A stretch of DNA of 64,000 nt, taken from positions 336,001 through 400,000 of the forward strand of contig JAVLUZ010000626.1 of assembly GCA_036768485.1 (NCBI GenBank), written 5' to 3'. The stretch comes from Mermis nigrescens. Taxonomy: Eukaryota > Nematoda > Enoplea > Mermithida > Mermithidae. Below are positions 13,956 to 58,102 of the stretch, in pieces. The translations under genes and the position numbers were made by a program. Every line of letters starts with the position of its first letter. Within the stretch, counting starts at the first letter, position 1. The notes under the pieces were generated by a model. That model was given only the letters and a program-made list of their open reading frames with translations. It was not told where the DNA came from and searched no databases.

Positions 13956-13970
13956 AAATTGGTGATGTCT

Positions 13971-14262
13971 CAAGAGCCCCACCAGTCCCAACAGCCCCAC
14001 CGTCCCAACAGCCCCACCAAAATCCCAACAGCCCCACCCGTCCCAACAGCCCCACCAGTCCCAACAGCCCACCGTCCCAACAGCCCCACCGTCCCAACAG
14101 CCCCACCAATCATCCCAACAGCCCCACCAATCCCAACAGCCCCACCACGTCCCAACAACCCCACCGTCCCAACAGCCCCACCGTCCCAACAGCCCCACTC
14201 AGCAGTCCCAGCAGCCCCACCGTCCCAACAGCCCCACCAATAATCCCAGCAGCCCCACCATT
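13971..14262 (+). repeat. Minisatellite arm of fold-back A (left)
   Basis: About 17 units of 17 bp with 1- to 4-base insertions between some units (AAT, AATC, AAAAT). The reading frames through it (Pro-Thr-Ala-Pro or Gly-Leu-Leu-Gly runs) are by-products of the repeat. Confidence 0.9.
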
Positions 14263-14629
14263 ACTGCGATTGCTATTATGCGAGAAGTACGTTTGGCGGA
14301 TGTACTTTTGAATTATTGAATTTATACGGGCTCCGTTTGATCATAAAAGAGCAGCATGTACATACAATTTAGGTAGGAAAGTACGTACTGCCCAAATGTA
14401 GCTGTATATTGCATGCATAGATCGATGTGAAGTGTTAAAATTCAATAAAAATCAAAACTTTCACGCTAATCTGCTTCAAAATAGCCAGAAAATGTGGATT
14501 AGCGTAATTTTTACGCTATTTTAACATTCATACCAGTTTTGAGGTCATTTTTGGCTCAAAGCTCCTTCTCCAGACCGATCGTGCCATGCAGCTATGAAGC
14601 TATGATTATAACAGTGGGATAGTTGCAAC

Positions 14630-14751
14630 CAAAATTGGCAGCGAAAAGTCTGGTGGGGGAGAGTGCTAAATATAGAATTCTGGGGGTTTACCATAATTTG
14701 GGGGTTTAAGGGGGTTAAACTCTAAACATCCCCTCCCCAAGCTTATGTGTG
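14630..14751 (+). mobile_element. M1 MITE, degraded short copy inside fold-back A
   Basis: Starts CAAAATTGGCAGCGAAAAG, ends AAGCTTATGTG TG-like; about 122 bp. Flanks GTTGCAAC (14622..14629) and GTTGGGAC (14752..14759) agree at 6 of 8 and start with GT like every other M1 target. Confidence 0.5.
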
Positions 14752-14805
14752 GTTGGGACAGTGCGACTGTTGGAGTGGTAGGACTGCTAGAACGATGGAA
14801 CTGCT

Positions 14806-15150
14806 GAGATTGGTGGGGCTCTTAGGACTAGTGGGCTCTTGGGATTATTGGTGGGGCTGTTGGGACGGTGGGGCTGCTGGGTAGGTGGGGTTGTTGGGAC
14901 GGTGGGGCTGTTGGGATTGGTGGGGCTGTTGGGACTAGTGGGGCTGTTGGGATTATTGGTGGGGCTGTTGGGACGGTGGGGCTGTTGGGACGGTGGGGTT
15001 ATTGGGACGGTGCGGCTGTTGGGATTGGTGGGGCTGTTGGGATGGTGGGGCTGTTGGTATAATTGGTGGGGCTGTTGGGACGCTTGGGCTGCTGGGATTT
15101 TTGGTGGGGCTGTTGGGACGGTGGGGCTGTTGGGACTGGTGGGGCTCTTG
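14806..15150 (-). repeat. Minisatellite arm of fold-back A (right)
   Basis: Inverted array of the same 17-bp unit (ACGGTGGGGCTGTTGGG on the plus strand), about 19-20 units with more variation than the left arm. Confidence 0.9.
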
Positions 15151-15569
15151 AGACACAATCGAAAAATTGTAAATTGTTGTTGCATTTTTATTGCTTCGTC
15201 CATTTCACATCGAATGATTAATCCCGGATTAACTTTTGACTCATCTAAGAAAGATTATTCGACGAAAATTCGCACACTTGTATGCAACTGAATTTTTATG
15301 AAATGCAAAAGACCGCAGGGTCAGAGTTGATATGCACAGGTGTACGTTAAAAGCCATTGATAGAGATATGCTGATGTTATGTGCTTTTGAACCACCCTAT
15401 AAAATAAACATTCATGCTAAACGCATCCTCGCATTATATGAAATTTCCTGCTCCTAGCATTCCACATTAACATATGAGGCATATGACGTCATGTGTTTTG
15501 CTGAGAAATCGATTTAAGTCGTATGCTTTCAAAGCAAATGTACATCTGCGTAACTGTGCGCGAGTTTTG

Positions 15570-15726
15570 TCAGTTCATACATAACTGTAGCTTGCATCTA
15601 CTATTCTGACATTGAAGCTGCACTATCGAATTTCAATTTTTCTGCCTATTAGTCGTTTTGGCTGACTCGCTAGCGAAAGTACAGGAACTGAATTATATCA
15701 CTGCATTATCGTCGATATCCTTCATA
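15570..15726 (+). promoter_or_regulatory. Putative core promoter and 5' UTR of LEA-like copy 1
   Basis: TCAGTTC at 15570..15576 matches the arthropod initiator consensus TCAGTY and lies about 155 bp before the ATG. The same stretch is conserved upstream of copy 2 (near 38020). No clear TATA box about 30 bp upstream. The transcription start is inferred only. Confidence 0.35.
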
Positions 15727-18700
15727 ATGTCTTCTGAAGAACACAAAGAAAAGGTAACCATTTCCTCTGCACGAAACTATATGTTGAAACTAGATGCTCA
15801 GACTCTTTAAACTCTTTTATTTATAAGTTAGAAAAAGCCGACCTAACACTTGTTTGCCGGGGGCCACTTCAGACGGCATCACTGCCCAAGTGACGTCCTG
15901 TAGAACACAATATTAATGTGTTTTCCATTTATCTTTTTATCGTTTTTACTACTTTTATTCCTAAACGTGTTCCGTCTAAGACAACAGTTGAAAATAGTTT
16001 TTATTGACGATTGTAAAAATTTCGGGAAATTTCTAGCCGATGACTAGACGAGTAGGACAGTTCGAAATATGGGTAAAACTGCAAAGTGATCGATATTAAA
16101 TGAGAATGTTTTTACCCTAATTGCATCAGGTCGAATGCTTAAAGAAGTCTGTTCAGGATGTTACTTTTCTGAATTTTACTTCGATTTTCACATGCTTCTT
16201 TCGTAGAAAACCAGACCGGAAAAATTAAAATTCGAAATTTTATATATTTTTCAGAAGTAGTCAAATGGCATAAGTGTAGGGTAATCTTTTCATTAAAAAC
16301 CTAATGAATAGAAAGCATCTCAAAAAAAGAATTCAGAGAATTAGGATTGCTGAGTAGAGACTGTACACGTTGATTAATTGAATAAGCTAATTTGTTACAC
16401 CTAGCATTTGTTGCTGATATCGTAAATTACAAGAAAATCTTTGGATAAGAAGATGTTAGAATTTCATTTTCAATTTATTATTTTAGATAATGATCTTCAG
16501 TTATACACATAGGTGGGCAGCACCAAAATTTTGGAGGGTGCAAGATTTTTCAAAGGTAAAAAAATGGTCTTAAAAATGGTGGTATGGCGAAATAACACCA
16601 TTTTTCAACGTTTCTTATCGTGCACTATCCATTGGCATCAAAAATTGCGAAAACAAACAAAAAAATTTCTAGAAATTGAATTATAGGGGTTCATACCTCA
16701 AACCCCCACGCCCACATGTGGTTATACACATTTGAAATATGTAGTTATTTATTTGTTGATGAAATCAATCGTTTTGCATTTAATTATCATTTAATGCAAA
16801 ATTTAATGTAACAGAAATGCGATGAAAAATCACAGAAATGTGATGAAAAACATGAGCATTCTGCTCAATGCGGCAACAAATCATTGGCGGATACGTTGAA
16901 AGACAAGGCTGGACAATTTGTCGAGAAGGTTGGCGAAGGTGAAGTAAATTACTCGAATTGACGTTTTCGTTTTTTCTTCTTTCAATCATTACCGGTTTTT
17001 TAAGTTTTTGTTTAATATGAAAAAATAATAAATTTAACTTTGAATTTCAAGCAACATCCCGTGTTCAGTGCGGCCATCATACGAATTTTCTGCGTGTTTC
17101 ATTCGGTCTGTCCCGTTTCTCCGACCATCCCGATTCTCCGACCATCCCGATTCTCTGTCTAATGATAAAACAGTTTATATTTAGATTCCCGAAATCCCCG
17201 TTTCTCCGACCGTCCCGATTCTCCGACTGTCCCGATTCTCCGACCGTCCCGATTCTCCGTTTAACGATAAAACAGGTTATTTTTAGATTTCCGAAATTCC
17301 CGTTTCTTCGACTGTCCCGATTCTCCGAACATCCCGATTCTCCGACTGTCCCGATTCTCCGACCAATTGTATGAAACACTATTTGTAAACACGAAAAATC
17401 ATCGTTTCTCTGACCGTCCTGATTCTACGACTGTACCGATCTCCGACCAATTGTACAAAACTCACGTTCAATGGTAAGGGATATTGACATTTGTGAAAGG
17501 ATGACGCTTTTTATTACTCCATTGATTGTTATACTTTTGCTCCATTCAAAAAAACCTTGCAGAATTTTCCGGTGCTCTTGTATGGTGAAAAATTATAAGT
17601 CATCAAGCGTCATCTGTGGATTTATCTTTATACAGACACCACAGTCTTACATTCTCAGAGCTCTTAACAAAAATGTGATTCCGACTCGTAACATCATATT
17701 GAATATCAATTGACTTCAAATGGTCGCGAAAAATATGCACGTAATCACGATAGTGAAGAAATTTATGAGCGGTCGGAGAATCGGGAAGGTCGGAGAATCG
17801 GGATAGGTCGTAGAATCGGGACGGTCGGAGAATCGGGACGGTCGGACAATCAGGTGCGGTCGAGGCAATCGGGACGGTCGGACAAGCAAGACGGTCGGAC
17901 AATCGGGACACAATCGTCTCATTATCGCATTTCTTAAGTGTATTAGACGCATTACTTAATGCTTAGGCTCATCGTTTTCGAGTGCTTGGCAAAGATTTTG
18001 AGGCTCTAATTCAAGGCTGAGTATTTTTAAAATCGTTTTTCTTGTTTTTTATCTGTTTCACTTCTAAGAGTTTTTGGGGAAGGTAAAAATGACTACAAAA
18101 CATTCGTTCGCAGCACCAAAATTCTGGGGGGGTGCTAGATTTGTTAGAGGTCAAAAATGGTCTTAAAAATGGTGGTATGGCGAGAAAAACACCATTTTTC
18201 AGCCTTTCTCATTAAGCACTATCCATGGGCATCAAAAAATTGCGAAAAAACAAAAAAATTTCAAAAATTGAATTCTGGGGAGTATTTTGGTTTCTGGGTG
18301 GTATTTCGGTTTCTGGGGGGTATTTTGGTTTCTGGGGGGTATTTTGGTTTCTGGGGGGTATTTTTGTTCCTTGGGAGGTATTTTGGTTTATGGGGGGATA
18401 TTTAGATTTCGGGGGGTACTTTGGTTTCTCGGGGGTGGGGGTGGTGCATACCTTCAAACCCCCACGCCCAGGTGTGCTGCGAAGTGCAAAAGTGTTTTTA
18501 AACTAATGTGACAGGAATGATATTTAAGAGTGTATTTACTGATAGGATTATGTCTAGCATTGTCCAGACTTTAAAACTATAGGAATACATTAATTACTTT
18601 CATAGCCTACTTGGATAATTGAATCACATGTAGTAAAAAATCTTCAATAAATAAAACGGACTATAGATTTTTAACAGTTGTTCCTAAACATTTTAAACAA

Positions 18701-20451: not shown

Positions 20452-21037
20452 TTAATGTGGGTTAAAGCCACGCATCTATCACCGATTTTGTTTTTCTAGT
20501 ACTCAGCCAATTTTACTAGTTAAGTAATGAAAATTTACAGATAAGATTCTCATACATTAAAGTTTATTGTGACAAATTTTAGCCAATTTCAACGAAGTGC
20601 TCCAAAAATTATCAACTTCAACGTGATTACCGTGATTTTGAACTAAATTGTACAAACGTTCACGATATGATAAACTGCGTTTTCTTTCAATATCCATAAC
20701 TGATCCAATTTCCATTAGGTTTTTGTGCCACTTATAAATGCTGTTCTTGTCAGGTGGGTCACACAACTCACAGCCAAACTCAGTTCGAAATTTTCTTTGG
20801 ACCGTAGCAATGCTTTTCGTCTACTCAAACCATGCAGCGACTTTTGCACGTTCAGTTACAGAATAGGACATGGTAAAATTTATATTAAACTGGCAATAAT
20901 AGGACGGGAGACTTCAAACTTTGAGTAATAAAACTTCTATGTTTATTGTACATTAGCTGTGATGTTTCATCAAGTTTACACAAAAATTGTCCGTTTTACG
21001 CAAAAGCAAAATCGGTGATAGATAAGTGGCCCACCCT
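20452..21037 (-). mobile_element. Mariner-like element remnant with DUF4817-type N-terminus
   Basis: Inverted ends share CCGATTTTG and ATCTATCACCG (left 20468-20490, right 21006-21029), continuing outward to GGGTGGGCCACTT at the right. It contains the transposase fragment described separately. Counterpart in unit 2 spans about 42573-43976 and has gained one M1 MITE inside. Confidence 0.6.
20557..20871 (-). pseudogene. Transposase N-terminal fragment (DUF4817-like HTH), broken
   Basis: From ATG at 20871 the frame reads MSYSVTERAKVAAWFE, then an in-frame TAG, then TKSIATVQRKFRTEFG, PPDKNSIYKWHKNLMEIG and SVMDIERKR. This order (ERAK...VAAWFE, VQRKFR, KNSIYKWHKNL, GSV) is the helix-turn-helix region that opens many insect mariner/Tc1-type transposases. 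After about residue 75 the family resemblance fades and no DDE domain follows, so it is a deleted, inactive remnant. The copy in unit 2 has TGG in place of the stop but carries a frameshift and a MITE instead. Confidence 0.7.
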
Positions 21038-21039
21038 GA

Positions 21040-22402: not shown

Positions 22403-23036
22403 TTTACCATGTACACATCTATGTACATGCATATATCATTAGAAATCGCGCTTTTGTATTTAAAATTAAGGCAGTGTCAAAGATTTCTGGTTATTCATAG
22501 GTCCGCTTTTATATTCAAATTTAGAATAAACTGATACCTACTCAAAGGATTTTGGAAAAATGTGATCGAAATTGTACCTAGTTTTTAACTTTTTCACCTC
22601 TGATAACGACGTATAGTTTTTATTCTTTAATTTAATTTATTTATGTCATATGAAAGGCATTTATGTACATTATTTAATATGCAAAACAATTTTTCGCTCT
22701 TTCCATTCGATAAAGTCCAACTGGGAGAGTCAAGAATTGAGATTTTTGAACTGAAATGACCTCAAAAACTGGATAAGTACCAAAATAGCACACAGTTTCT
22801 TGGACAATTTAAAGCATTTTTGAACAACATTTAAGATTTTTCCCGTGAAAATTTTCATGATTCCATTCCAAAGGGTAGACCCTATACGGGCATGTCTGGT
22901 GCCTAGGTAACTACGTAACAATATACAACGGTAGTTATGCAGTCAAATGTCTACCGAAAATGCACGTGGGAGCAGCTGGGCATACGTAACTGGGCAGCAC
23001 GCAAATTCTGGGGGATCAGGCAGGATGGGTCAAATC
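22403..23036. repeat. Flank segment F, copy 1 (other copies 30368 and 54229)
   Basis: Starts at the empty target CATGTA and runs through ATATATCATTAGAAA, an R2 copy (22715-22905), GGGCATGTCTGGTGCC and a broken M1 end (CATACGTAACTGGGCAGCAC, 22981) to the next M1 start. The same series follows the palindrome at 54229 and its half copy at 30368. A 63-codon frame here is not conserved. Confidence 0.75.
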
Positions 23037-23141
23037 CATACGTAGGCAACAAAAAAGTTCTGGGGGAGGGTGCGAGATTTTTCAAAGGTCCAAAAATGGC
23101 CTTAAAAATGGTGGTATGGCGAAGAAAACATCATTTTTCGA
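23037..23141 (+). mobile_element. M1 MITE truncated at the edge of the large inverted repeat
   Basis: CATACGTAGGCAAC start, with the target copy GTCAAATC at 23029..23036; identical to the first part of the complete MITE at 54868. It stops at TTTTTCGACG, where the arm of the inverted repeat begins, so the rearrangement cut through it. Confidence 0.8.
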
Positions 23142-23453
23142 CGCCCCTCCCCCCTATTGGCCCAAAAAAGTGCGAAAAATTAAGCATTTTTGAGCGATTT
23201 TTTTGCGATTTTCGGGTTAAAACGGCTAATTTTTCCGCCCAAATCAGGGTTTCGCCCCCCCCCCCTTAGGGGTACGGCCCCCCTTATTAGGAAAATCCTA
23301 GATCCGCCACTGGACGTTTTATGAAGAAAAAACAAGGCAAAATAAAGGCCAAAACGATGGAAATTGAAAATTTTCGTTGAAACTGCTTCAAATTGACCAT
23401 AAACTGTGTAATAACGTAGTTTTAACCTTATTTTAGGGATTTTAACAGTTATC

Positions 23454-23618
23454 TATTGTCTGTTTCACACAACTTCGGTCATAAATTTTTAAACTATCTC
23501 CGACAATAATCTGACAGATTGCGATTATAGCATTGATCTGATATCATAACCCTTGGCTTACATACTGTCGTTAAAAATTCTTAGAATTTATGCACGAAGT
23601 CATGTGAAACAGACTATA
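23454..23618. mobile_element. M2 MITE (TATTGTCTGTTTCAC ends), left arm
   Basis: TIR TATTGTCTGTTTCACAC / ATGTGAAACAGACTATA. Mirror copy at 37080..37243. Confidence 0.75.
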
Positions 23619-24357
23619 TGTAGTTCATTTTGGCCCCAAAAAGCTCAATTTTTGACGCCCCAGATCGGCTGACTCCCAGATCTGTCATCATGCTTTGCAG
23701 TGCATCTATCCGCACCGTAGATGCACAGCATGGCCGGTTTGGGTGGTCAAGAAATATGCTTTTTTAGGGCCGAAATGACCTCGAAAACTAGTGTAAGCGC
23801 TAAAATATTGTTAAAACTATGTACATAATTACACAGTTTCTGGTCAATTAAAGCAATTTTGAAGGAGATTTAATCCGTTTTTAGCCTTCATTTTAGCCTT
23901 ATTTTCCCAAGAAAATTTTTAATTTTTACATTCTCGAGGCTCTAAACCCTAACCTTCTCCCCACGTGCATTTCTGGTCCGTACCGGACCCCCTGAGAATC
24001 TGAAAGACCCCCAAAAATTAATACTCTTAGAAATGAATTTTCAGTGCAACTCTACAGAATTTGGTTGCTCTTGCTTTCGATACGACTATGAACGCGACTT
24101 GTAAAGTCATATCCAGAATCTTTTAAGTTAGTACTTCCTCAAATTTTCACTGTTTGGCCAGAAAAGTCAGAACCAAATGCATTTTTCTTCGGGCCGCAAC
24201 CTACATAATTCTGGGGTAATCGCGAAAAATAACCGCCGAAAATTCAATTCTGAATTTTTTCCTGATTCGGAGAGGGCTTTTAGATTCTGTAGAGGTTTGA
24301 GGCCTCCATTCCCTTGTGTGGCACAACCTGACAAGCAATTGGGAGGGGCTTTAGGTC

Positions 24358-25172: not shown

Positions 25173-25223
25173 TGGTGACAGGCTTTCGTACGCTTTGCAT
25201 GTGTATACACGTTAAGAATAGGT

Positions 25224-38176: not shown

Positions 38177-41100
38177 ATGTCTTCTGAAGAACACAAAGAA
38201 AAGGTAACCATTTCCTCTGCACGAAACTAGATGCTCAGACTCTTAATACTCTTTTATTTTTTAGAAAAACCGACCTAACACTTTTTTGCCGGGAGCCACT
38301 TCAGACGGCATCGCTGCCCAAGTGACGTCCTGTAGAACACAATATTAATGCGTTTTCCATCTACTTATCGTTTTTACTACTTTTATTCCTAAACGTGTTC
38401 CGTCTAAGACAACAGTTGAAAATAGTTTTTATTGACGATTGTAAAAATTTCGGGAAACTTCTAGCCGATGACTAGACGAATGGGACAGTTCGAAATATGG
38501 GTAAAACTGCAAAGTGATCGATACTGAACGATAATGTTTTTACCCTCATTGCATCAGGTCGAATGCTTAAAGAAGTCTGTTCAGGATGTTACTTTTCTGT
38601 ATTTTACTTTGATTTTCACATGCTTCTTTCGTAGAAAACCAGACCGGAAAAATTAAAATTCGAAATTTTATATATTTTTCAGAAGTAGTCAAATGGCATA
38701 AGTGTAGGGAAATCTTTTCATTAAAAACCTAATGAATAGAAAGCATCTCAAAAATAGAATTCAGCGAATTAGGATTGCTGAGTAGATACTGTACACGTTG
38801 ATTCATTGAATAAGCTTATTTGTTACACCTAGCATCTGTTGCTGATATCGTAAATAACAAGAAAATCTTTGGATAAGAAAATGTTAGAATTTCATTTTCA
38901 ATTTATTATTTTAGATAATGATCTTCAGTTATACACATAGGTGGGCAGCACCAAAATTCTGGGGGGTGCAAGATTTTTCAAAGGTAAAAAATGGTCTTGA
39001 AAATGGTGGTATGGCGAAAAACACCATTTTTCAACGTTTCTTATCGTGCACTATCCATTGGCATCAAAAATTGCGAAAACAAACAAAAAAATTCCTAAAA
39101 TTGAATTCTGGGGTTCATACCTCAAACCCCCCACGCCCACATGTGGTTATACACATTTGAAGTATGTACTTATTTATTTTTTGATGAAATCAATCGTTTT
39201 GCATTTAATTATCATTTAATGCAAAATTTAATGTAACAGAAATGCGATGAAAAATCACAGAAATGTGATGAAAAACATGAGCATTCTGCTCAATGCGGCA
39301 ACAAATCATTGGCGGATACGTTGAAAGACAAGGCTGGACAATTTGTCGATAAGGTTGGCGAAGGTGAAGTAAATTACTCGAATTGACGTTTTCGTTTTTT
39401 CTTCTTTCAATCATTAACGGTTTTTTAAGTTTTTGTTTAATATGAAAAATAATAAATTTAACTTTGAATTTCAAGCAACATCCCGTTTCAGTGCGGCCAT
39501 CATACGAATATTTACTGCGTGTTTTATTGGGTTTGTCCCGTTTCTCCGACCGTCCCGATTCTCCGACCATCCCGATTCTTTGTCTAATGATAAAACAGCT
39601 TATATTTAGATTCCCGAAATTCCTGTTTCTCCGACTGTCCCGATTCTCCGACTGTCCCGATTCTCCGTCCGATCGTATAAAATAGCTATTTTTAGATTCA
39701 CGAAATTCCAGTTTCTTCGACTGTCCCGTTTCTCCGACCATCCCGATTCTCCGACCATCCTGATTCTACGACTGTACCGATTCTCCGACTAATTGTATAA
39801 AACTCACGTTTAATGGGAAAGAATATTGAGATTTGTGAAAGGATGACGCTTTTTATTACTTCATTGATTGTTACACTTTTGTTCCATTTAAAAAAACCCT
39901 GCAGAATTTTCTGGTGCTCTTGTGTGGTGAAAAATTATAAGTCATTAAGTTCATCTGTGGATTTATGTTTATACAGACACCACAGTCTTACATCCTCAGA
40001 ACTCTTAGCAAAAATGTGATTCCGACTCCGTAAAATCATATTTAATATCAATTGACTTCAAATGGTCGCGAAAAATATGCACGTAATCACGATAGTGAAG
40101 AAATTCATGAGCGATCGGAGAATCGGGAAGGTCGGAGAATCGGGACGGTCGGAGAATCGGGACGATCGGACAATCGGGATGGTCGGAGAATCAAGACGGT
40201 CGGAGAATCGGGACACAATCGTTTCATTACCGCATTTCTTAAGTGTATTAGACGTATTACTTAATGCTTAGGCTCATCGTTTTCGAGGGCTTGGCAAAGA
40301 TTTTGAAACTATATTTAAGGCTGAGTATTTTTAAAATCATTTTTCTTGTTTTTTTTCTGTTTCACTTCTAAGAGTTTTTGAGAAAGTTAAAAATGACTAC
40401 AAAACATCCGTTAGCAGCACTAAAATTCTGGGGGTGCAAGATTTGTTAGAGATCGTCAAAAATGGTATTAAAAATGGTGGTATGGCGAGAAAAACACCAT
40501 TTTTCAGCGTTTCTCATTAAGCACTATCCATTGGCATCAAAAAATTGTGAAAAAACAAAAATATTACAAAAATTGAATTATCGGGAGTATTTCGGTTTCT
40601 GGGGGTATTTGGGTTTCTGGGGGTATTTTGGTTTCTGGGGGTATTTTGGTTTTTGGGGTGGGTATTTTGATTCCTGGGGGGTATTTTGATTTCTCGGGCG
40701 GGAAGGAGGTGGTGCATACCTTCAAACCCCCACGCCCAGGTGTGCTGTGAAGTGCAAAAGTGTTTTCTAAACTAATGTGACAGGAATGATATTTAACGAG
40801 TATATTTACTGATAGGATTATGCCTAACATTGTCCGGACTAATAAATCAAGCTGCATAGTTCTTGTTCACTCAATCGAGCAGATGTCTTACTTAATGAAG
40901 TGCCGGCAATGATAAAATTTTGCAGGAAGAGAAAATTGCCAAAATTATCGCGTAGAATAACTTAAAGTACCGAATTACGAGGAGAATCACCACATCAAAA
41001 CTAAATTTACCAAAATCTTCGTTAATCTTGACAAAGTTTTGGCACGCATAAAGTTTTTTGAGGACTATTTCTGGAAGCGCCCGGTCTTTTTGACTCTTCT

Positions 41101-45066: not shown

Positions 45067-45072
45067 CATGTA

Positions 45073-48000
45073 AGTAGTTAAGCCTGTCTCCCTGGTGTGC
45101 AACACAAAGTATAGCCTGTGCTTAAGCGTAGGCAATGTTGAAGCATAGTCCTGTGTTGAAACATAGGCTATATGTTTTGTGTTGCGGTCTAGGGGATGAC
45201 GTCACACTATAGTTAACCCCAACTATGGGTATACTGGAGACTATTTTAAATTTGCGGATCAAGTCAACCAGGTATACTTTACACTACAGCAAGAGTACCT
45301 AGTTAATGCAGGGGGGATATATACGAAAAAGGGGGAATCTATCAGAAATTTATTTTTTAGGGGATAACTATGAACACCGCTTACTATACTAAATGCGTAC
45401 AATATTCTAACTTGCGTACCACTTGACCACTTTACACTTTACACTCGACTAGTTTACACCATATCATAAAACTGCTATAAATCATGAACCAATGGCCGGA
45501 TTGAGCTGAAATGTTCAGAATATAAACACTACATGCCAAAAATAATGTATACGGAAAATCGTGAACTGGCTTACTGTAGCTATGTTACAACACGTATTTT
45601 TTGAACCAATGGCCGAATTGAGCTGAAATTTTCAGAATATAAAGACCACATGCCAAAAATAACGTATATGAAAAATCGTGTACTGGCTTACTGTAGCTAT
45701 GTTATAACACGTACTTATTGAAGCAATGGCCGGATTGAGCTCAAATTTGAGAAACAGCATATACGCGAGTCACTTATTCTTTGCACATTGGCTTACTGTA
45801 GGTATACTGTAGCTTTCTGGATTTTCTATATCTCACAAACTAACAGTCAAATAAAGCTGAAATTCAATAAATTAGATGCATATGAGTAAAAAATAACGTA
45901 CGCAAAATATAGTGGATGGGGTCACTGTAGGTATGCTACAACACGTATCTTTCAATTCGCCGAGCTGGAAATTTGAGAGATTTAACAAATACGATAGAAC
46001 AGGGTACCAGAACTACCATAGGCAACATTTAGTAACCCATAGTGAGGAAAAGGTGGTTGTGAAAAAGGTTACAAAGGGTCCACAGTCTCGCCCAGATGTC
46101 CCCCAACCTAAAGCTAGAGGATCACTCTGTGGACTGCAGATCTTTTGTATGAACACACTGAAAACGTTCATAATACTTAATAAGATTATGAGACAATAAA
46201 ACATGAAGATAAGGGTTTAACGAAAAAAATCAGACATATTTTGTAAGATTTGGAAATTTTTTGTAAAATTTGGAAATTATTTTGTAAACTTTGGAAACTT
46301 TTTTGTAAAATTTGGAAACTTTTTTGTAAAATTTGGAAACTGTTTTGTAAAATTTGGAAATTATTTTGTAAAATTCGGAAACTTTTTTGTAAAATTTGGA
46401 AATTATTTTGTAAAATTTGGAAACTTTTTTGCGTGCTTAAGCATAGGAATTTTGTAAAATTTGGAAACTTTTTTGTAAAGTTTGGAAACTTTTTTGTAAA
46501 ATTTGGAAACTTTTTTGTAAAATTTGGAAACTTTTTTGTAAAGTTTGGAAACTTTCTGTAAGTCTATAAAATATCTTCCAAAGTTTGAGAAATTCCAAGC
46601 ACAAAACCGGAATTCCTCTTGTAGAAATCAAAAAGTTTCTTGCAGAGTTTGGAATTTTCTTGCAGAATTTGAGTATTCTTGCATTGTTTCTGAAAATCAT
46701 TGAGAAATCTGGGGATACAGAGGAGCTTTTGAGAACTTTTAGAAATTCAAAAACAATTTTCTCATCGAACATGGAAAACTTGCAAGATTTGGTAATCTAT
46801 CACAGAGTTTGGAATTTTCTTGCAGAATTTGAGTATTCTTGCATTGTTTCTGAAAAACATTGAGAAATCTGGGGATACAGAGGAGCTTTTGTGAACTTTT
46901 AGAAATCTAAAAACAATTTTCTCATCCGAACATGGAAAACTTGCAAGATTTGGTAATCTATCATTAGAAAATGAAATTAAGGAGGTAAAGGTTGAGCCAG
47001 TTTAATAAATATGAAACAAATTGTCCTGTATATTCTTGCAAATGAACAAAATATTTAGTCCTCTTGTTACGGCTATGTGTTACTTTGACCACGATCAAAA
47101 ACTACCCTTTCTTTACAACAAATTTATGTAGTTTTGGCTAACCTAGAGGCCAAAATTTCCTATTTTAAACACACTTTTGTGCCAAATATGGCTCAAAACA
47201 TGGGAAATTCTCAACGCAAAAGCCTCATATCTGTATATGGAATGCATCTTTCTGTATGTGCGAAGGATTTTACCTTTATGCGACTATTTTGTTGTCCAAA
47301 ACATACATTTTGTTCTGATTTTTCAACAAGTCTCGGCTAAAAACATGTGCTTTTGCTGAAGAAAATGAAAATAAACATAGAAAATAAGCATATTTTGATA
47401 GCAATAAAACATGACCAGTTTCTGATAGTAGGGATAGCCACCTTTTCTGTCTCCAAAGCATGAAAATAAAGAAAATGTACATGCATTTGTAGGAAATTTT
47501 CGAATTTTTCGCAATTTTCGAGTTGTTCCACTCCATTGCACAAAATAGTACTTGTTATTAAAACTCTAGAATTTTCCCGCACAGAAAGGTAAACTTTTGC
47601 ACCCAGCGGAAGTTCTCTAGGAAAAAAGAATCAAAAATTTATGCTAAAATAGATATCATGTATAGCACCGACATAGCAAAAGGCAGATAACTGTGTGTTT
47701 TAAGAATCATTCTGAACATTTTGGGAAAAGTTTGGTCTCCATGTGCACAGTAGTTGAGGGTTGAGACACATTTTCAGGTAGAAATGATGTTAACTTTCAA
47801 ACAAGGAACAGGCAAAAATAATGCAAATAGATGCTAAAATGGAAAAATGTCAGTTTTGTTCAGAAAGTTCTTAAGATCAACCAGAAATGGCAGCTCAGGC
47901 AGATTCTGCACTATTTTTACCCTTCTAGTCAGTTTTTCAGCAATTTCAGCCTTGAAAGGTTTGGAAAATTGACACTTCTTTACCCACTTCAACCTCCCAG

Positions 48001-48903
48001 ACCAAGATCTGCTTTGGGCAAAAATTATGTGTAATTAAGGCCAAAAAGAGACAAATATTGCAGCTTTGTTGAGAAAGTGCTTGAAATCAGCTGAAAACTG
48101 CAAGTTGAGATAACTTTTCGGTTGTTTTTATGAATTTTAGGGCCATTTGAGTCCTAAAAAGCTCGAAAAATTTACTTTTAGACTGCCTCATCCTCCCAGG
48201 CCTCCTGGCCAGACACTCACATGAGGGTTTGGGGGTTTTGCCCCAAAAGTGAAGATTTTCTAGGAAAAATGAGGCAAAATAAAACCCAACATTGAATGAA
48301 AATTAAAATATTTGTTTAGAAACATCAAAAACCGTACGGAAACTATGGAGTTACATGGTTTTTTCGCTATTTAAGCTTTAAATCCCGTTTTTTGTGGCCA
48401 TTTTATCTCCTAGACTAAGGTCTGTTTTAGTCAAAAATAGTGTAAAATCAAGGCCAAAATCAGACAAAAATCATATTTTGTTGCAAAAGTCTTGAAATCA
48501 AGCAGAAACTGTCACTTAAGTTGAAGTTTATGCTATTTTGATGCTCACAGTCAATTTTTGTGGCCATTTCAGCCCTAAAAGGCTCGAAGAATTAGCTCTC
48601 AAGACTGCAAAATCCTTGCAGGCCTCCTGATCTGACAAGCCTGTGGATTTGGGGTCTAGACCACCTCAGAATGGAAGAAATGGGAATATTCCAGGTCAAT
48701 TGAGGCAAGCTGAGGACTAAAACTGAATGAAAATTGAAGAATCTTTCCGAAAATGCCTAAAAGTGATCAGAAACTATGGATTTACATGGTAATAACCTTA
48801 TTTTAGCGTTTACACCCATTTTTCGGCCATTAATCCAAAAAAAGCGGAAATTTTGACCCCAAGACCGGTCCTTCTTGCCACCTATGCTCCCAGACCTTGG
48901 TCT
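45073..48903 (+). repeat. Left arm of the 9.16-kb palindrome
   Basis: Order: terminal GCTTAAGC-rich patch; 123-bp tandem repeats (45483-45735); a 95-codon frame (45912..46199) that is not conserved as protein; the 21-bp minisatellite (46240-46556); a duplicated block with TTGCAAGATTTGGTAATCTA (46.77-46.97 kb); then R2-related units (47.83-48.9 kb) ending CTCCCAGACCTTGG. Confidence 0.9.
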
Positions 48904-50392
48904 GCTGTGTGTTAAATGAATTAATCAGTGAAATATTTCAAGTAAAATAATCAGACCAATCATTCAAAGCCTCATTGAAACCCCTTTTGTTCCTATTTTA
49001 TCATATTTTTATATGTAAACAAAACTTTTACAAAGTTGTATGTCTGAATACTTGAAAATGTATGAATTATCTAAATGGTATTCACAAAGTTTGTGTCAGA
49101 TTGTTTGGATGCAAGGACCCATTGGACTGAGGGGATGTTTTTACAAGGTTCATTTATGAGCAAGAATATAGAAATTCTTTCATTTTAACAAACAAATCTT
49201 GTGAAACTTGTCATGGTTTATGAATATTTATTTTACTATTCAATATCAGGCATATTCATTTTGAAGTATTTTTCAGTAAATTGTGCAAAATCTTGGAATT
49301 AGTAATATTTATGTGGCAAATTCGTTGAAAATATGCTTAAATTGACCAATTAATTATGTAAGAAATATATTTTTGCATATGAAAATGCAGATAATATTAA
49401 AAATTAAAATAAATTTATTTACTTTGACCACATTTGTTATAATACTAAGAGAGGTAATCATGGTCTGCCTTTCTGTAAATCTTAAACATGGGATACATAA
49501 AGCCATGTCTCCAGAAATTTATCGGTTTCAAATATTCTTGAGCTTGATAATTTGATCAGGCAGAAACTTGCTATAGAATAACAACAATATTTTCATACCT
49601 CTTGCTATTTCTGACTTGGAATGTTGTTTATGGATGAACGATACCATATCAGTTTTATTGGAAATTCAACTGGCTGTCTTATCTTGCTAGTAATTCTTTC
49701 TTGAACATATACAAACATTGAAAAGAAGCTTCATTCTAAAATGCTTCAATGTCAATAATATAGCTATTTGAACTATCACAATAAAGATTAGTTAACTAAG
49801 CATGTTTATTTGGACATCTGTCATTCTTACCTTTATTTGTATAATATAAATACAAACATAAATTGGAAGTAATAATCAGTAAAAAATGTAATTATTCCTT
49901 GGTTGCTATGCTATATTTCTGCCATAATCAATGATTTAGCACACTTAGAACCTCCCTTTTTTCCAGAATATGGATGCATTAATAGTGAGTTATTGCGATA
50001 TACTAAGGCGAATTAAAACATGAAATTGAAAAATGCGGGTTTCTGCCCAATATTGTTGAAAATGCAGAGCATAAAAATACTCACTTCCTTCTTGAGGAAA
50101 AGGACTAATTGTGAAATATACGAGATATTGTGTAAAATCATAACTTTCCAGGCTTTTTTATTTGCAGTTTTCTGCCCATCACCCATGTTTCAGATTAGAG
50201 GTTTTTGAACTCTGGACTATAAATGTTTATATTCTAAACAATTGGAATATTAATCTTTGAAATAGGTATCACACTTATATTTGTTATTTACATGGCGAAA
50301 TCAGGGGCTGAAGTAGAGATTTGGCTGTACAGTCTGTGTTTTCATATGAAATGTAAGATTTATGTCATGGTTTTACCTTTTGCCTCACTGCA
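48904..50392. other. Unique centre of the palindrome
   Basis: AT-rich, no frame above about 62 codons, no splice or family landmark. It is the only part of the element not in the inverted arms; nothing identified. Confidence 0.7.
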
Positions 50393-53300
50393 CACCAAGG
50401 TCTGGGAGCATAGGTGGCAAGAAGGACCGGTCTTGGGGTCAAAATTTCCGCTTTTTTTGGATTAATGGCCGAAAAAATGGGTGTAAACGCTAAAATAAGG
50501 TTATTACCATGTAAATCCATAGTTTCTGATCACTTTTAGGCATTTTCGGAAAGATTCTTCATTTTTCATTCAGTTTTAGTCCTCAGCTTGCCTCAATTGA
50601 CCTGGAATATTCCCATTTCTTCCATTCTGAGGTGGTCTAGACCCCAAATCCACAGGCTTGTCAGATCAGGAGGCCTGCAAGGATTTTGCAGTCTTGAGAG
50701 CTAATTCTTCGAACCTTTTAGGGCTGAAATGGCCACAAAAATTGACTGTGAGCATCAAAATAGCATAAACTTCAACTTAAGTGACAGTTTCTGCTTGATT
50801 TCAAGACTTTTGCAACAAAATATGATTTTTGTCTGTTTTGGCCTTGATTTTACATTATTTTTGACTGAAACAGACCTTAGTCTAGGAGATAAAATGGCCA
50901 CAAAAAACGGGATTTAAAGCTTAAATAGCGAAAAAACCATGTAACTCCATAATTTCCGTACGGTTTTTGATGTTTCTAAACAAATATTTTAATTTTCATT
51001 CAATGTTGGGTTTTATTTTGCCTCATTTTTCCTAGAAAATCTTCACTTTTGGGGCAAAACCCCCAAACCCTCATGTGAGTGTCTGGCCAGGAGGCCTGGG
51101 AGGATGAGGCAGTCTAAAAGATAAATTTTTCGAGCTTTTTAGGACTCAAATGGCCCTAAAATTCATAAAAACAACCGAAAAGTTATCTCAACTTGCAGTT
51201 TTCAGCTGATTTCAAGCACTTTCTCAACAAAGCTGCAATATTTGTCTCTTTTTGGCCTTAATTACACATAATTTTTGCCCAAAGCAGATCTTGGTCTGGG
51301 AGGGTGAAGTGGGTAAAGAAGTGTCAATTTTCCAAACCTTTCAAGGCTGAAATTGCTGAAAAACTGACTAGAAGGGTAAAAATAGTGCAGAATCTGCCTG
51401 AGCTGCCATTTCTGGTTGATCTTAAGAACTTTCTGAACAAAACTGACATTTTTCCATTTTAGCATCTATTTGCATTATTTTTGCCTGTTTCTTGTTTGAA
51501 AGTTCACATCATTTCTACCTGAAAATGTGTCTCAACCCTCAACTACTGTGCACATGGAGACCAAACGTTTCCCAAAATGTTCAGAATGATTCTTAAAACA
51601 CACAGTTATCTGCCTTTTGCTATGTCGGTGCTATACATGATATCAATTTTAGCATAAATTTTTGATTCTTTTTTCCTAGAGAACTTCCGCTGGGTGCAAA
51701 AGTTTACTTTTCTGTGCGGGAAAATTCTAGAGTTTTAATAACAAGTACTAATTTGTGCAATGGAGTGGAACCACTCAAAAATTGCGAAAAATTCGAAAAT
51801 TTTCTACAAATGCATGTACATTTTCTTTATTTTCATGCTTTGGAGACAGAAAAGGTGGCTATCCCTACTATCAGAAACTGGTCATGTTTTATTGCTATTA
51901 AAATATGCTTATTTTCTATGTTTATTTTCATTTTCTTCAGCAAAAGCACATGTTTTTAGCCGAGACATCAGAACAAAATGTATGTTTTGGACAGCAAAAT
52001 AGTCGCATAAAGGTAAAATCCTTCGCACATACAGAAAGATGCATTCCATATACAGATATGAGGCTTTTGCGTTGAGAATTTCCCATGTTTTGAGCCATAT
52101 TTGGCACAAAAGTGTGTTTAAAATAGGAAATTTTGGCCTCTAGGTTAGCCAAAACTACATAAATTTGTTGTAAAGAAAGGGTAGTTTTTGATCGTGGTCA
52201 AAGTAACACATAGCCGTAACAAGAGGACTAAATATTTTGTTCATTTGCAAGAATATACAGGACAATTTGTTTCATATTTATTAAACTGGCTCAACCTTTA
52301 CCTCCTTAATTTCATTTTCTAATGATAGATTACCAAATCTTGCAAGTTTTCCATGTTCGGATGAGAAAATTGTTTTTAGATTTCTAAAAGTTCACAAAAG
52401 CTCCTCTGTATCCCCAGATTTCTCAATGTTTTTCAGAAACAATGCAAGAATACTCAAATTCTGCAAGAAAATTCCAAACTCTGTGATAGATTACCAAATC
52501 TTGCAAGTTTTCCATGTTCGATGAGAAAATTGTTTTTGAATTTCTAAAAGTTCACAAAAGCTCCTCTGTATCCCCAGATTTCTCAATGATTTTCAGAAAC
52601 AATGCAAGAATACTCAAATTCTGCAAGAAAATTCCAAACTCTGCAAGAAACTTTTTGATTTCTACAAGAGGAATTCCGGTTTGTGCTTGGAATTTCTCAA
52701 ACTTTGAAAGAAATTTTATAGACTTACAGAAAGTTTCCAAACTTTACAAAAAAGTTTCCAAATTTTACAAAAAAGTTTCCAAATTTTACAAAAAAGTTTC
52801 CAAACTTTACAAAAAAGTTTCCAAATCTTACAAAATTCCTATGCTTAAGCACGTAAAAAAGTTTCCAAATTTTACAAAATAATTTCCAAATTTTACAAAA
52901 AAGTTTCTGAATTTTACAAAATAATTTCCAAATTTTACAAAACAGTTTTCAAATTTTACAAAAAAGTTTTCAAATTTTACAAAAAAGTTTCCAAATTTTA
53001 CAAAAAAGTTTCCAAAGTTTACAAAATAATTTCCAAATTTTACAAAAAATTTCCAAATCTTACAAAATATGTCTGATTTTTTCGTTAAACCCATATCTTC
53101 ATGTTTTATTGTCTCATAATCTTATTAAGTATTATGAACGTTTTCAGTGTGTTCATACAAAAGATCTGCAGTCTACAGAGTGATCCTCTAGCTTTAGGTT
53201 GGGGGAGATCTGTGCGAGACTGTGGACCCTTTGTAACCTTTTTCACAACCGCCTTTTCCTCACTATGGGTTACTAAATGTTGCCTATGGTAGTTCTGGTG

Positions 53301-54228
53301 CCCTGTTCTATCGTATTTGTTAAATCTCTTAAATTTCCAGCTCGGCGAATTGAAAGATACGTGTTGTAGCATACCTACAGTGACCCCATCCACTATATTT
53401 TGCGTACGTTATTTTTTACTCATATGCATCTAATTTATTGAATTTCAGCTTTATTTGACTGTTAGTTTGTGAGATATAGAAAATCCAGAAAGCTACAGTA
53501 TACCTACAGTAAGCCAATGTGCAAAGAATAAGTGACTCGCGTATATGCTGTTTCTCAAATTTGAGCTCAATCCGGCCATTGCTTCAAAAAGTACGTTTTA
53601 TAACATAGCTACAGTAAGCCAGTACACGATTTTCCATATACGTTATTTTTGGCATGTAGTCTTTATATTCTGAAAATTTCAGCTCAATCCGGCCATTGGT
53701 TCAAAAAATACGTGTTGTAACATAGCTACAGTAAGCCAGTTCACGATTTTCCGTATACATTATTTTTGGCATGTAGTGTTTCATATTCTGAACATTTCAG
53801 CTCAATCCGGCCATTGGTTCATGATTTATAGCAGTTTTATGATATGGTGTAAATAGTCGAGTGTAAAGTGTAAAGTGGTCAAGTGGTACGCAAGTTAGAA
53901 TATTGTACGCATTTAGTATAGTAAGCGGTGTACATAGTTATCCCTAAAAAATAAATTTCTGATAGATTCCCCCCTTTTTCGTATATCCCCCTGCTTTAAC
54001 TAGGTACTCTTGCTGTAGTGTAAAGTATACCTGGTTGACTTGATCCGCAAATTTAAAATAGTCTCCAGTATACCCATAGTTGGGGTTAACTATAGTGTGA
54101 CGTCATCCCCTAGACCGCAACACAAAACATATAGCCTATGTTTCAACACAGGACTATGCTTCAACATTGCCTATGCTTAAGCACAGGCTATACTTTGTGT
54201 TGCACACCAGGAGACAGGCTTAACTACT
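50393..54228 (-). repeat. Right arm of the 9.16-kb palindrome
   Basis: Reverse complement of 45073..48903 with few differences. The part from about 51583 onward is the piece also found at 27711..30367. Confidence 0.9.
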
Positions 54229-55310
54229 CATGTACACATGTATGTACATGCATATATCATTAGAAAGCGCGCTTTTGTATTTAAAATTGAGGCAATATTA
54301 AAGATTTCTGGTTATTCACAGGTCCGCCACTATATTCAAATTTAGATTAAACGGATACCTATTCAAAGGATTTTGAAAAAATCGGCTCGAAATTGTAATT
54401 AATTTTCACCTAGTTTTTAGCTTTTTTACCTCCGATAACGACGCATAGTTTTTATTCTTTAATTTAATTCATTTATGTCTTATGAAAGGCATTTATGTAC
54501 ATTATTTAATATGCAAAACAATTTTTCGCTCTTTCCATTCGATAAAGTCCAACTGGGAGAGTCAAGAATTGAGATTTTTGAACTGAAATGACCTCAAAAA
54601 CTGGATAAGTACCAAAATAGCACACAGTTTTTGGACAATTTAAAGCATTTTTGAACAACATTTAAGATTTTTCCCGTGAAAATTTTCATGATTCCATTCC
54701 AAAGGGTAGACCCTATACGGGCATGTCTGGTGCCTAGGTAACTACGTAACAATATACAACGGTAGTTATGCAGTCAAATGTCTACCGAAAATGCACGTGG
54801 GAGCAGCTGGGCATACGTAACTGGGCAGCACGCAAATTCTGGGGGATCAGGCAGGATGGGTCAAATCCATACGTAGGCAACAAAAAAGTTCTGGGGGGAG
54901 GGTGCGAGATTTTTCAAAGGTCCAAAAATGGCCTTAAAAATGGTGGTATGGCGAAGAAAACATCATTTTTCGACGTTTCTCTTCAAGCACTATCCATTGG
55001 CATCAAAAAATTGCGAGAAAAAATTTCAAAAATTGGATTCTTGGGAGGTATTTTGATTTCTCGGGATAGGGGGTGCATACCCCCAAAACCCCCCACGCCC
55101 AGGTGTGGTCAAATGGCCCAAAATGTTACTGAAAATAGATTTCTGATGGTCTGCGGGGGGGTTTCTCAACTTCTGTGGGTGCAACCTCCACGCCTATGTG
55201 TGAGCAGAGGAATCTCCTACAGATTGCCTACTGATGACAAGCTGAGCAAACCTATTCAGTTTTAAAGAAAAGTTAAAGTGTAGGCTATTATCGTTTTTCA
55301 CGACTTGAAA
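54229..55310. repeat. Flank segment F, copy 3
   Basis: Continues unit 2 beyond the palindrome: CATGTACACATGTATG, R2 (54550-54745), broken M1, complete M1, then shared sequence to TTTTCACGACTTGAAATTGC. Confidence 0.8.
54868..55107 (+). mobile_element. M1 MITE in flank copy 3
   Basis: CATACGTAGGCAACA ... CGCCCAGGTGTG; flanks GTCAAATC and GTCAAATG. It is the complete form of the truncated MITE at 23037. Confidence 0.85.
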
Positions 55311-55646
55311 TTGCGATTAATTTTCCAGCGTAAATTATATTGAATTTTTCGAATCTTTCGTACAGACGCGACACAGGGACCATAGCGGGTTCTCTAGATA
55401 CATTTTTTAGGCATCGTCTTTCATGAACATTTTATCGTACTTCCTAAGTTTGAATAGTACCCCTAGTACTACATTGATATCCGGGCATCGAAACACCAGA
55501 CTGACCAGAAACAACGAAGACACGTACATATGTACTTCACGACGTTTTCTTTCGTTCTACGAACCTTCGTTCCCCGTTTAGATTATATGTAAAATATTGT
55601 ATTATTATCCGCGATTTCAACAGGCACGTAGCTGTGGGGGGAGAAT
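55031..55646. repeat. Direct repeat, unit 1
   Basis: Repeats at 55690-56301: shared GATTCTTGGGAGGTATTTTG, GGTTTCTCAACTTCTG, TGTGAGCAGAGGAATCTCC, GGGCATCGAAACACCAGACT, TACATATGTACTTCACGACG, GGCACGTAGCTGTGGGGG. No coding frame survives in both units. Confidence 0.85.
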
Positions 55647-55659
55647 GGGGGGTCTGGAC

Positions 55660-55766
55660 CATACGTGGGCAGCAAAAAAATTCTCTTGAAATTAGATTCT
55701 TGGGAGGTATTTTGATTTCTCGGGATAGGGGGTGCATACCCCCAAAACCCCTCACGCCCAGGTGTG
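55660..55766 (+). mobile_element. Short M1 MITE at the junction of the direct repeats
   Basis: CATACGTGGGCAGCAAAAAA to CACGCCCAGGTGTG, 107 bp. Flanks GTCTGGAC and GTCCAATC do not match well, as expected if the direct duplication fused the 5' part of one MITE to the 3' part of another. Confidence 0.65.
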
Positions 55767-56301
55767 GTCCAATCGCCAAAAATTTCACAGAAAATAGATT
55801 TCTGAAGGTCTGCGGGGGGTTTCTCAACTTCTGTGGGTGCAACCTCCACGCCTATGTGTGAGCAGAGGAATCTCCTACAGATTGCCTACTGATGACAAGC
55901 TGAGCAAACCTATTCAGTTTTAAAGAAAAGTTAAATTGTAGGCTATTATCGTTTTTCACGACTTGAAATTGCGATTAATTTTCCAGCGTAAATTATATTG
56001 AATTTTTCGAATCTTTCGTACAGATGCAACACAGGGACCATAACGGGTTCTCTGATATTTTTATAGGCATCGTCTTTCAGGAACATTTTATCGTAGTTCC
56101 TAAGTTTGAATAGCACCCCTAGTACTACATTGATATCCGGGCATCGAAACACCAGACTGACCCGAAACAACGAAGACACGTACATATGTACTTCACGACG
56201 TTTTCTTTCGTTCTACGAACCTTCGTTCCCTGTTTAGATTATATGTAAAATATTGTATTATTATCCGCGATTGCAACAGGCACGTAGCTGTGGGGGAAAA
56301 T
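55690..56301. repeat. Direct repeat, unit 2
   Basis: See unit 1 at 55031. Differences are scattered substitutions and a few short indels. Confidence 0.85.
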
Positions 56302-56523
56302 GGGGAGTCCGGACCCCCAAAATTCAGAAGAAAACGGAAAAATAGGTTTTTTCACACGTTATTTTGTGCTATTTCTGGCTTAGACCCCCCAAAATTGGTG
56401 TTGGTCCTCCCATAATAGGAGGGCCAACTACATGCCTGGATTTCAATAATAAAAATGTGATATGTCCCTAAGAATAAAAACATGATATATGTAGATAGTT
56501 CAGCAAGTGCCTAACAAAATCTG

Positions 56524-58102
56524 GTACCGTCTCAACACTCCCACTGTCTCAACATTCCCACTGTCTCAACATTCCCACTGTCTCAACACTCCCACTCGAA
56601 TTCTCAACACTCCCACTGTCTCAACATTCACACTGTCGCAATGCTAAACGGGACCATATATGAGCATGAAGCGTCTGGGTGGGGTCTAGAGACCCCCTCT
56701 CGCCCAAGAATCTGGCGAACTTCCTAGAATTGTTATCACTGATACTTTTTGGAACTTGATCCCGTCTGGAGCCCCATAATTTTTAAGCTGCCCATGCATG
56801 AATGGTAAATTTCACTTAAGGGCGATAAGATTTACAACCTTGCACATATTCTAGTTCAGATTTAGGATTTTAAATATCACTTTATGGTTATAAGATCTAC
56901 GACCTTGCACATATTCTACTTCAACGGATTTGGGATTTTACTGACACAGATGCCACATGCCACTGTTTCGCATTTTCAATGGCGAAGCTATGGTAATTAG
57001 TTAGCAGGATTTAATGTCATCAAAAAATACATTAAGATGCAGGTATCGCGAAATGGGTTTCATTTTTATCAACATGCGTGATGATAACAACGCTATATCC
57101 ATTAAGAGTTTAACCAAGACGATATATAATTTTTATGTAATTGTATCTAATATTAAAGGTCAGGACCCGCCAATTTCAGGCAGGAGCTCCAACACGTCCA
57201 CGGGATCCTCGTTATGTTGCTGTGGACAATGGAATAGTGCGTGCCAAAGAAAATTTTGCACGCGAAATCATCGGGGTCCAGCCTGAACAGCTGATTGAAA
57301 ATGCACGCGGTTATTTGAATCACTTAATATTATCTTCTTGGTTAAACCGTTAATGGATATAGCGTTGTTATCATCACGCATGTTGATAAAAATGAAACGC
57401 ATTTCGCGATACCTGCAAATCTTGCTAACTAATTACCATAGCATCGCCATTGAAATTGCGAAACAGTGGCAGGTGGCATCCGTGTCAGTAAAATCCTAAA
57501 TCCGTTGAAGTAGAATATGTGCAAGGTCATGAATCTTATCACCATTAAGTGATATTTAAAATCCTAAATCTGAACTGGAATATGTGCAAGGTTGTAAATA
57601 TTATCGCCCTTGAGTGAATTTTACCGTTCATGCATGGGCAGCGTAAAAATTATGGAGCTCCAGACGGGATCAAGTCCCAAAAGGTATCAATGATAACAAT
57701 TCTTGGAAGTTCGCCGGATTCTTGGGCGAGAGGGGGTCTCTAGACCCCACCCAGACGCTTCATGCTCATATATGGTCCCGTTTAGCATTGCGACAGTGTG
57801 AATGTTGAGACAGTGGGAGTGTTGAGAATTCGAGTGGGAGTGTTGTGACAGTGGGAATGTTGAGACAGTTGGAATGTTGAGATAGTGGGACTGTTGAGAA
57901 TTCGAGTGGGAGTGTTGAGACAGTGGGAATGTTGAGACACTGGGAATGTTGAGATAGTGGGAATTTTGAGACAGTGGGAGTGTTGAGAATTCGAGTGGGA
58001 GTGTTGAGACAGTGGGAATGTTGAGACAGTGGGAATGTTGAGACAGTGGGAATGTTGAGACAGTGGGAATGTTGAGACGGTGGGAGTGTTGAGGCACAAT
58101 CC
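56524..58102. mobile_element. Fold-back element C with 17-bp minisatellite ends and a coding-like loop
   Basis: Outer arms are arrays of CTCAACATTCCCACTGT (left, 56529-56640) and its reverse complement (right, 57790-58093). Inside these a further inverted repeat continues to 57119 and 57337, so total arms are about 600-765 bp. AAAATCTG flanks both sides (56516..56523, 58103..58110), an 8-bp duplication. Right edge reads GAGGCACAATCC, matching the right edges of A (GAGACACAATC) and B (GGGACACAATC). The 217-bp loop holds a coding-like exon. Confidence 0.8.
57180..57353 (+). CDS. Coding-like exon in the loop of fold-back C (unrecognised)
   Basis: After an acceptor-like CCGCCAATTTCAG, 57 codons are open to a TAA at 57351..57353: AGAPTRPRDPRYVAVDNG, then IVRAKENFAREIIGVQPEQ, LIENARGYLNHLILSSWLNR. 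Codon use (GCC, CGC, GTC, CTG, CAG) contrasts with the AT-rich arms. The last codons and stop lie in the right inverted arm, so the stop may have come with the element. It could be a host exon captured by the fold-back element, or the stub of a lost transposase. No family recognised and no donor site identified. Confidence 0.35.
   Translation, partial: AGAPTRPRDPRYVAVDNGIVRAKENFAREIIGVQPEQLIENARGYLNHLILSSWLNR

Follow-up and report, generated by a model that had tools for sequence, protein, structure and literature searches.

Three fold-back element families with inverted arrays of alignable 17-bp units in a contig of the nematode Mermis nigrescens

Transposons whose inverted ends are built from short tandem units have been described in nematodes and mosquitoes, and the systems closest in anatomy to the one reported here are Tm1 of Meloidogyne and the Muta families of Aedes aegypti. 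Tm1, a Mutator/Foldback element, has asymmetric 7-bp outer motifs outside its inverted repeat, of which one is well conserved and the other variable; short non-inverted motifs in this position are unusual, yet have been reported for Mutator-like elements (MULEs) (PMC3169594). Its tandem units are ~14 bp long and differ in number at the two ends; target duplications of 8–10 bp, with 9 the commonest length, flank 45 of 53 elements; and beside non-autonomous copies with differing centres there is one type of copy that codes for a FLYWCH-MULE transposase (PMC3169594). Muta1, an element of the Mutator type, makes 8- or 9-bp duplications and has 12-bp tandem units in its terminal inverted repeats (TIRs); 10 of the 12 Muta families with long TIRs have tandem units of 9–15 bp, and their non-autonomous derivatives combine heterogeneous centres with shared TIRs (PMC5225508). 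Here we describe three fold-back elements, A, B and C, in 64,000 nucleotides of the Mermis nigrescens contig JAVLUZ010000626.1 (positions 336,001 to 400,000; the whole of this stretch is hereafter the window, and all scans refer to it). Elements of their kind are already known from nematodes and mosquitoes. With a probability that we put at roughly 65%, they represent three non-autonomous, cut-and-paste fold-back families of one lineage, of the MULE type (Phantom/Muta/Tm1-like). A literature search, beyond whose reach most subscription papers lay, returned no paper on these elements.

Inverted 17-bp arrays, borders and flanks

Period-17 arrays stand in opposite orientation at both ends of A, of C and of the two copies of B (B1 and B2), as a first-pass annotation of the window, made from its letters alone, had noted. 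Tandem arrays were called by Tandem Repeats Finder and their units were then decomposed one by one; a lag scan (85-base windows, identity ≥0.6) returned nine lag-17 regions, all nine of which overlap A, B or C. Read from the outside in, the unit is GTCCCAACAGCCCCACC in A, GTCCCGATTCTCCGACC in B and GTCTCAACATTCCCACT in C. The outermost 60 nt of the left and right arms are identical at 58 positions in A, and at the same number in C, where a GAATTCG-variant unit is found three times in the right array and once in the left. The centres are unrelated, as first proposed: matches between families are short and weak (lowest E 0.052, with centre boundaries, like the arm boundaries of the B copies, chosen by the analyst or a script).

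Aligned without gaps, the three units have the same base at 9 of 17 positions, the figure given in the first pass, and the comparison with composition-shuffled 17-mers that it had suggested places the real agreement far above the null. By shuffling, a three-way agreement of this size arises at a rate of 1/200,000 when the phase is fixed (P = 5e-6) and of 1/3,000 when the phase is free (P = 3e-4). Between A and C the agreement is strong, at 13/17 (P = 2e-5 fixed, 1e-4 free). A weak period-17 array called at 30271–30333 and 54136–54195 was considered as a fourth family and rejected, there being no CACAATC near it (the nearest is at 31129).

The right border announced as common to the elements, GRGRCACAATC, is matched perfectly at the right end of each of the four copies, and the four right arrays stop in one phase at GRC, followed by ACAATC. 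The border alone is not commoner than chance: CACAATC occurs 7 times in the window against 8.65 expected, ACAATC 25 times against 43.9, and GRGRCACAATC, with at most one mismatch, 4 times against 2.62. What gives the string weight is that it closes the arrays in one and the same phase. A matrix of unit plus border, trained on two families and scored on the third across 127,956 positions, ranked the held-out end 4th for A, 4th and 5th for B1 and B2, and 4th for C, the training ends inside the scan numbering three, two and three, respectively; with only two training ends present when B was held out, at least one other site outranks B. The unit-plus-border pattern was also met in external contigs, in two viral-contig and six genome-contig stretches, and none of the eight had an adjacent 17-bp array (lag-17 identity 0.15–0.26) in a search from which the window's own genome and very near ones were possibly excluded. 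As no 17-bp array neighbours them, we take these matches as chance.

The ends are asymmetric, a feature that had gone unremarked: a left GGT with 2–3 further bases and a right ACAATC both lie outside the inverted repeat, which ends at GTC/GRC, and ACAATC is found outside it on the right in 4/4 copies. Left remnants for A, B1, B2 and C are not read alike under the two possible flank lengths; the four are GTGAT, GGTCT, GGTTT and GTACC in the 9-bp reading, and GGTGAT, CGGTCT, GGGTTT and GGTACC in the 8-bp reading from the same right border. GGT is present at the left border of all four, its position in A and C being one base away from that in B. An inverted ACAATC at 13944–13949, 17 bases outside the left array of A, was tried as the true left end of that element and rejected; we take it as chance because B and C have no equivalent there and the flanks would mismatch.

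Flanking duplications were scanned in A, B1 and C, with left and right remnants of 0–12 bases; B2, as a duplicate, was omitted. The best common geometry has a left remnant of 5, a right remnant of 6 and 9-bp flanks (24/27 matches), and the best 8-bp geometries, 5/7 (that of the first-pass annotation) and 6/6, each give 22/24. Random triples of flank pairs, 2,000 in all with 36 geometries scanned for each, reached at most 18/27 for 9 bp and 17/24 for 8 bp; as the real geometry exceeds every one of them, the target duplications of A, B and C are very likely real. Their length may be 8 or 9 bp, either of which fits the three insertions. The 8-bp direct flanks first proposed are therefore upheld in part, being exact in A and C in the frame originally used, whereas B matches at 6/8 in either copy (7/8 one base earlier) and a length of 8 is not established. 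The same length had been held to set the elements apart from Drosophila FB, for which 9 bp was given; since a 9-bp reading that begins after CACAATC gives a fit at least as good, duplication length does not, on this evidence, separate A, B and C from FB.

Both copies of B are present with inverted period-17 arms, as first described, but they are not separate insertions. They lie, with both their flanks, inside a segmental duplication of ~3.1 kb (15480–18570 and 37931–40840, 88.9% identity), so B1 and B2 derive from a single insertion and the case comprises three independent ones. The two copies have centres that are 92% alike and identical right borders, and their arrays (left/right) measure 351/140 nt in B1 and 258/102 nt in B2; at least here, arrays turn over faster than borders. 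The features of the elements are listed in Table 1. A search of the right arm of A against phage records gave zero matches.

Table 1 Coordinates of the fold-back elements and their parts in the window
Feature	Position	Strand	Remark
Element A, fold-back element	13962..15160	.	9-bp border reading; first pass 13962-15161
A, left target duplication (very likely) AAAAAATTG	13953..13961	+	8/9 against right copy GAAAAATTG
A, right target duplication (very likely) GAAAAATTG	15161..15169	+	
A, left arm, 16 units of GTCCCAACAGCCCCACC	13967..14260	+	outermost unit is a variant also in right arm
A, right arm, ~22 units	14752..15154	-	degenerate innermost; 58/60 identity with left arm over outermost 60 nt
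A, right asymmetric end motif ACAATC	15155..15160	+	outside inverted repeat
Element B, copy 1 (B1)	17105..17915	.	
B1, left flank GTTTCATTC	17096..17104	+	7/9 against right flank GTCTCATTA
B1, right flank GTCTCATTA	17916..17924	+	
B1, left arm, GTCCCGATTCTCCGACC units with interspersed AT-rich spacers	17110..17460	+	higher-order repeat ~102 bp
B1, right arm, 8 inverted units	17770..17909	-	
B1, right end motif ACAATC	17910..17915	+	
Element B, copy 2 (B2)	39530..40220	.	same insertion as B1, inside segmental duplication
B2, left flank GTTTTATTG	39521..39529	+	7/9 against right flank GTTTCATTA
B2, right flank GTTTCATTA	40221..40229	+	
B2, left arm	39535..39792	+	258 nt by the script's boundaries, 351 nt in B1
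B2, right arm, 6 units	40113..40214	-	8 units in B1
B2, right end motif ACAATC	40215..40220	+	
Element C, fold-back element	56524..58101	.	first pass 56524-58102
C, left target duplication (very likely) CAAAATCTG	56515..56523	+	9/9
C, right target duplication (very likely) CAAAATCTG	58102..58110	+	
C, left array, ~6.4 units of GTCTCAACATTCCCACT	56529..56641	+	
C, inner inverted arm	56650..57124	+	88.8% pairing with inner arm 57331..57779
C, opposite inner inverted arm	57331..57779	-	
C, right array, ~17 units	57788..58095	-	higher-order repeat expansion with GAATTCG-variant unit
C, right asymmetric end motif ACAATC	58096..58101	+	outside inverted repeat

Comparison with described fold-back transposons

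With Tm1 the three elements share outer motifs that are asymmetric and lie beyond the inverted repeat (seen in each of A, B and C), one of the two being conserved and the other variable, tandem units in unequal arms, differing centres, duplications in the 8–10-bp range and a nematode host. The motifs themselves differ on sight, CGGTTAA/CCTACCC in Tm1 against GGT../ACAATC here, and the Tm1 unit, mostly of 14 bp against 17 bp here, has a different sequence (PMC3169594). Because both outer motifs and unit differ, A, B and C are, as judged from their sequences, not Tm1. Shuffled Tm1 units reached the true score in 444/500 trials against A, 18/500 against B and 410/500 against C; a relation of the B unit to that of Tm1, considered on the strength of this one test of three, would be a faint likeness at most and is not claimed. 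Motifs B (GGA) and D are further parts of Tm1. Likenesses to the Muta families lie in the long TIRs of tandem units, the 8- or 9-bp duplications and the varied centres. Muta1 differs in its 12-bp unit with spacers of 3–4 bp, in a terminal motif that is a 10-bp imperfect palindrome, and in having a known transposase that is active in yeast (PMC5225508). The range of 8–11 bp given for MULE duplications (PMC6446971) takes in the 8 or 9 bp of A and C, those of B being imperfect, and the arms, at ~100 to 600 nt, have the length of long MULE TIRs.

The Drosophila FB elements, which the first-pass annotation had cited for comparison, are a more distant parallel in anatomy than Tm1 and the Aedes Muta families. 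FB and FB4 have fold-back ends with variable centres (PMC2955051), and tandem repeats are found in FB ends (PMC3169594). Galileo, a member of the P superfamily in Drosophila, likewise has long, internally repetitive TIRs, but a P-type transposase; its end repeats hold extra transposase sites and have been shown to bind the DNA-binding domain of that enzyme, and such binding was called untested for Foldback and Phantom elements in the 2013 paper (PMC3688188). Tetris of Drosophila virilis resembles the present elements in its fold-back ends, tandem repeats, 8–10-bp duplications and copies lacking a transposase, and differs in that its units are ~220 bp long and are preceded on the outside by a flanking domain that can reach 866 bp (PMC4079207). 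Rehavkus has a 9-bp duplication, a minisatellite before its 3′ TIR and a PHD-finger transposase (PMC6446971); its duplication length is a possible one for A, B and C, whose arrays make up both arms. Two further comparisons belong to general background. The units of Drosophila FB probably differ from those of A, B and C, and the sea-urchin TU elements, on which a search found no paper, likewise have fold-back ends, their tandem units being short and their duplications 8 bp long.

Explanations for the shared ends

We infer that A, B and C would be mobilized in trans by a Mutator-type (MULE) enzyme made elsewhere in the genome. This transposase would recognize the outer motif (left GGT with 2–3 bases, right ACAATC) and bind the repeated 17-bp units; the element would be excised and then inserted with a staggered duplication of 8–9 bp. 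The layout of each element runs from an asymmetric outer motif through an inverted 17-bp array in fixed border phase to an unrelated centre. Between families the units would have diverged through array slippage and unequal exchange, border and phase probably being kept by selection. The common period, border phase, right motif and insertion geometry argue for the single superfamily that had been proposed from the first inspection.

Several results weigh against this reading. The B unit is only weakly like the other two when each pair is taken alone, agreeing with A at 11/17 (P = 0.003 fixed, 0.047 free) and with C at 10/17 (P = 0.009 fixed, 0.15 free); it is by phase and border (right array GRC, then ACAATC) that B is joined to A and C. 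Its outer arms are also poorly matched between left and right (42/62 in B1, 48/62 in B2). Mutated duplication bases have to be assumed in A, B1 and B2 under the 9-bp model and in B1 and B2 under every model, and the independent insertions are only three. Among 80 open reading frames of the window scanned against Pfam, none matched a transposase family, and none inside A, B or C did so. Moreover, fold-back ends occur with other transposases, as in Galileo of the P superfamily, and the anatomy is therefore no proof of a MULE.

This last point leads to a reading that we regard as unlikely, though with some claim to attention, namely that a single fold-back lineage was moved by a non-MULE transposase making 8-bp duplications (P/Galileo-like or hAT-like). 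Both P and hAT elements make duplications of 8 bp, the length over which the flanks of A and C are exact in the frame of the first-pass annotation. The TIRs of Galileo are long, repetitive and provided with transposase sites (PMC3688188). However, the fit is no worse for 9 bp counted directly from the end of CACAATC, and motifs outside the inverted repeat have been reported for Mutator-like elements (PMC3169594). That the three families are unrelated, their C-rich minisatellites being alike by chance or by selection on base composition, seems improbable: the marginal likeness of the B unit to those of A and C and the chance frequency of the border motif in the window are what such a coincidence would give, but composition does not explain the three-way agreement (P = 5e-6 and 3e-4), the phase, the border or the geometry. 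Least credible to us is modular exchange, in which one lineage would have kept its border while its end arrays were replaced by new minisatellites. A constant right border beside differing units fits such a history; a single gap-free register, however, is not expected of a new satellite, and A and C differ at only 4/17 positions. A gap-free register, which the three units show, is what the divergence of one array predicts; it favours divergence over replacement and tells against the swapping of minisatellites first envisaged.

A tentative and rather doubtful further reading is that A, B and C are sibling families of one genome whose transposases and 17-bp units diverged together, with border, period and phase held constant. 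If so, the synaptic complex would read the spacing and phase of the units rather than most of their sequence. Tandem repeats in such transposon ends have been suspected to be transposase binding sites, as shown for Galileo (PMC3688188). Should the genome bear the families out, fold-back MULEs of the Tm1/Muta type would extend to another animal lineage, probably of nematodes, and the conserved features of their ends (border, phase, period) could be compared with the drifting ones (unit sequence, array length).

Coding capacity and other features of the window

A complexity filter and the omission of duplicated segments left 111 of 139 frames that were 72 residues or longer; the 80 scanned against Pfam comprise 79 of these 111 and one more, and the remaining 32 lie for the most part on minisatellite arrays or on the zinc-finger gene described below. 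The loop of C (57165–57350) contains a 62-residue open frame (P0121) behind an acceptor-like TTTCAG. Its match to PF07717 (OB fold of helicases), with E 0.05, is below the curated cut-off and, with 80 frames scanned, at chance level. A protein search limited to candidates of 0.55–1.75 times the query length found no homologues; there was no match in NCBIfam and none in the PDB to E 1, with one unrelated uncharacterized protein to E 10. A captured gene in C was considered, with this sub-threshold PF07717 match as its sole relative; the frame may be a gene fragment, and we make no claim for it.

Outside the elements, an 87-residue frame at 20560–20820 (minus) has a helix-turn-helix match to DUF4817 (E 6.4e-4) whose score of 19.8 bits falls short of the 22.6 cut-off, and is possibly, to go by this match, a remnant of another transposon. 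Matches to DUF63, Methuselah_N, HEXIM and an adenovirus hexon, below the cut-offs where these were seen, were set aside as chance. The frame scan also returned PF22386 with E 0.032. Rfam, searched at gathering thresholds, gave zero matches in the window.

Repeats of other kinds are present as well. One of ~200–280 bp occurs in ~12 copies (623–825, 2614–2866, 8512–8787, 16497–16689, 18110–18436, 31005–31265, 32452–32697, 38925–39113, 40423–40700, 42331–42571, 43472–43741 and 54867–55110), several of which end in a minisatellite of 18–23 bp, for example GGGGGGTATTTTGGTTTCT, unlike the fold-back elements. Large direct and inverted duplications of 92–98% identity involve 22408–31116, 33033–37534, 45073–48909 and 50386–55320. 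The ~740-bp repeats at 22408–23143 and 30368–31116 could be long terminal repeats, and a frame of 159 residues at 25179–25655 looks gag-like by eye, with no Pfam match. Three of the duplicated segments contain nested arrays (28452–29196, 46239–46963 and 52323–53067) in which two 160-bp units stand beside 15–16 copies of the 21-bp AAAGTTTCCAAATTTTACAAA or its complement.

The only frame noticed above a Pfam cut-off is a C2H2 zinc-finger exon of a PRDM13-like gene at 60514–61188 (minus). On this gene alone, the source of the window would be guessed to be a nematode akin to those among its best matches and distinct from Romanomermis culicivorax. Among the best 120 of 547 matches to this gene, the top one is from Romanomermis culicivorax (66% over half of the query), and the next are Trichinella, Plectus and arthropod proteins, several of them named PRDM13.

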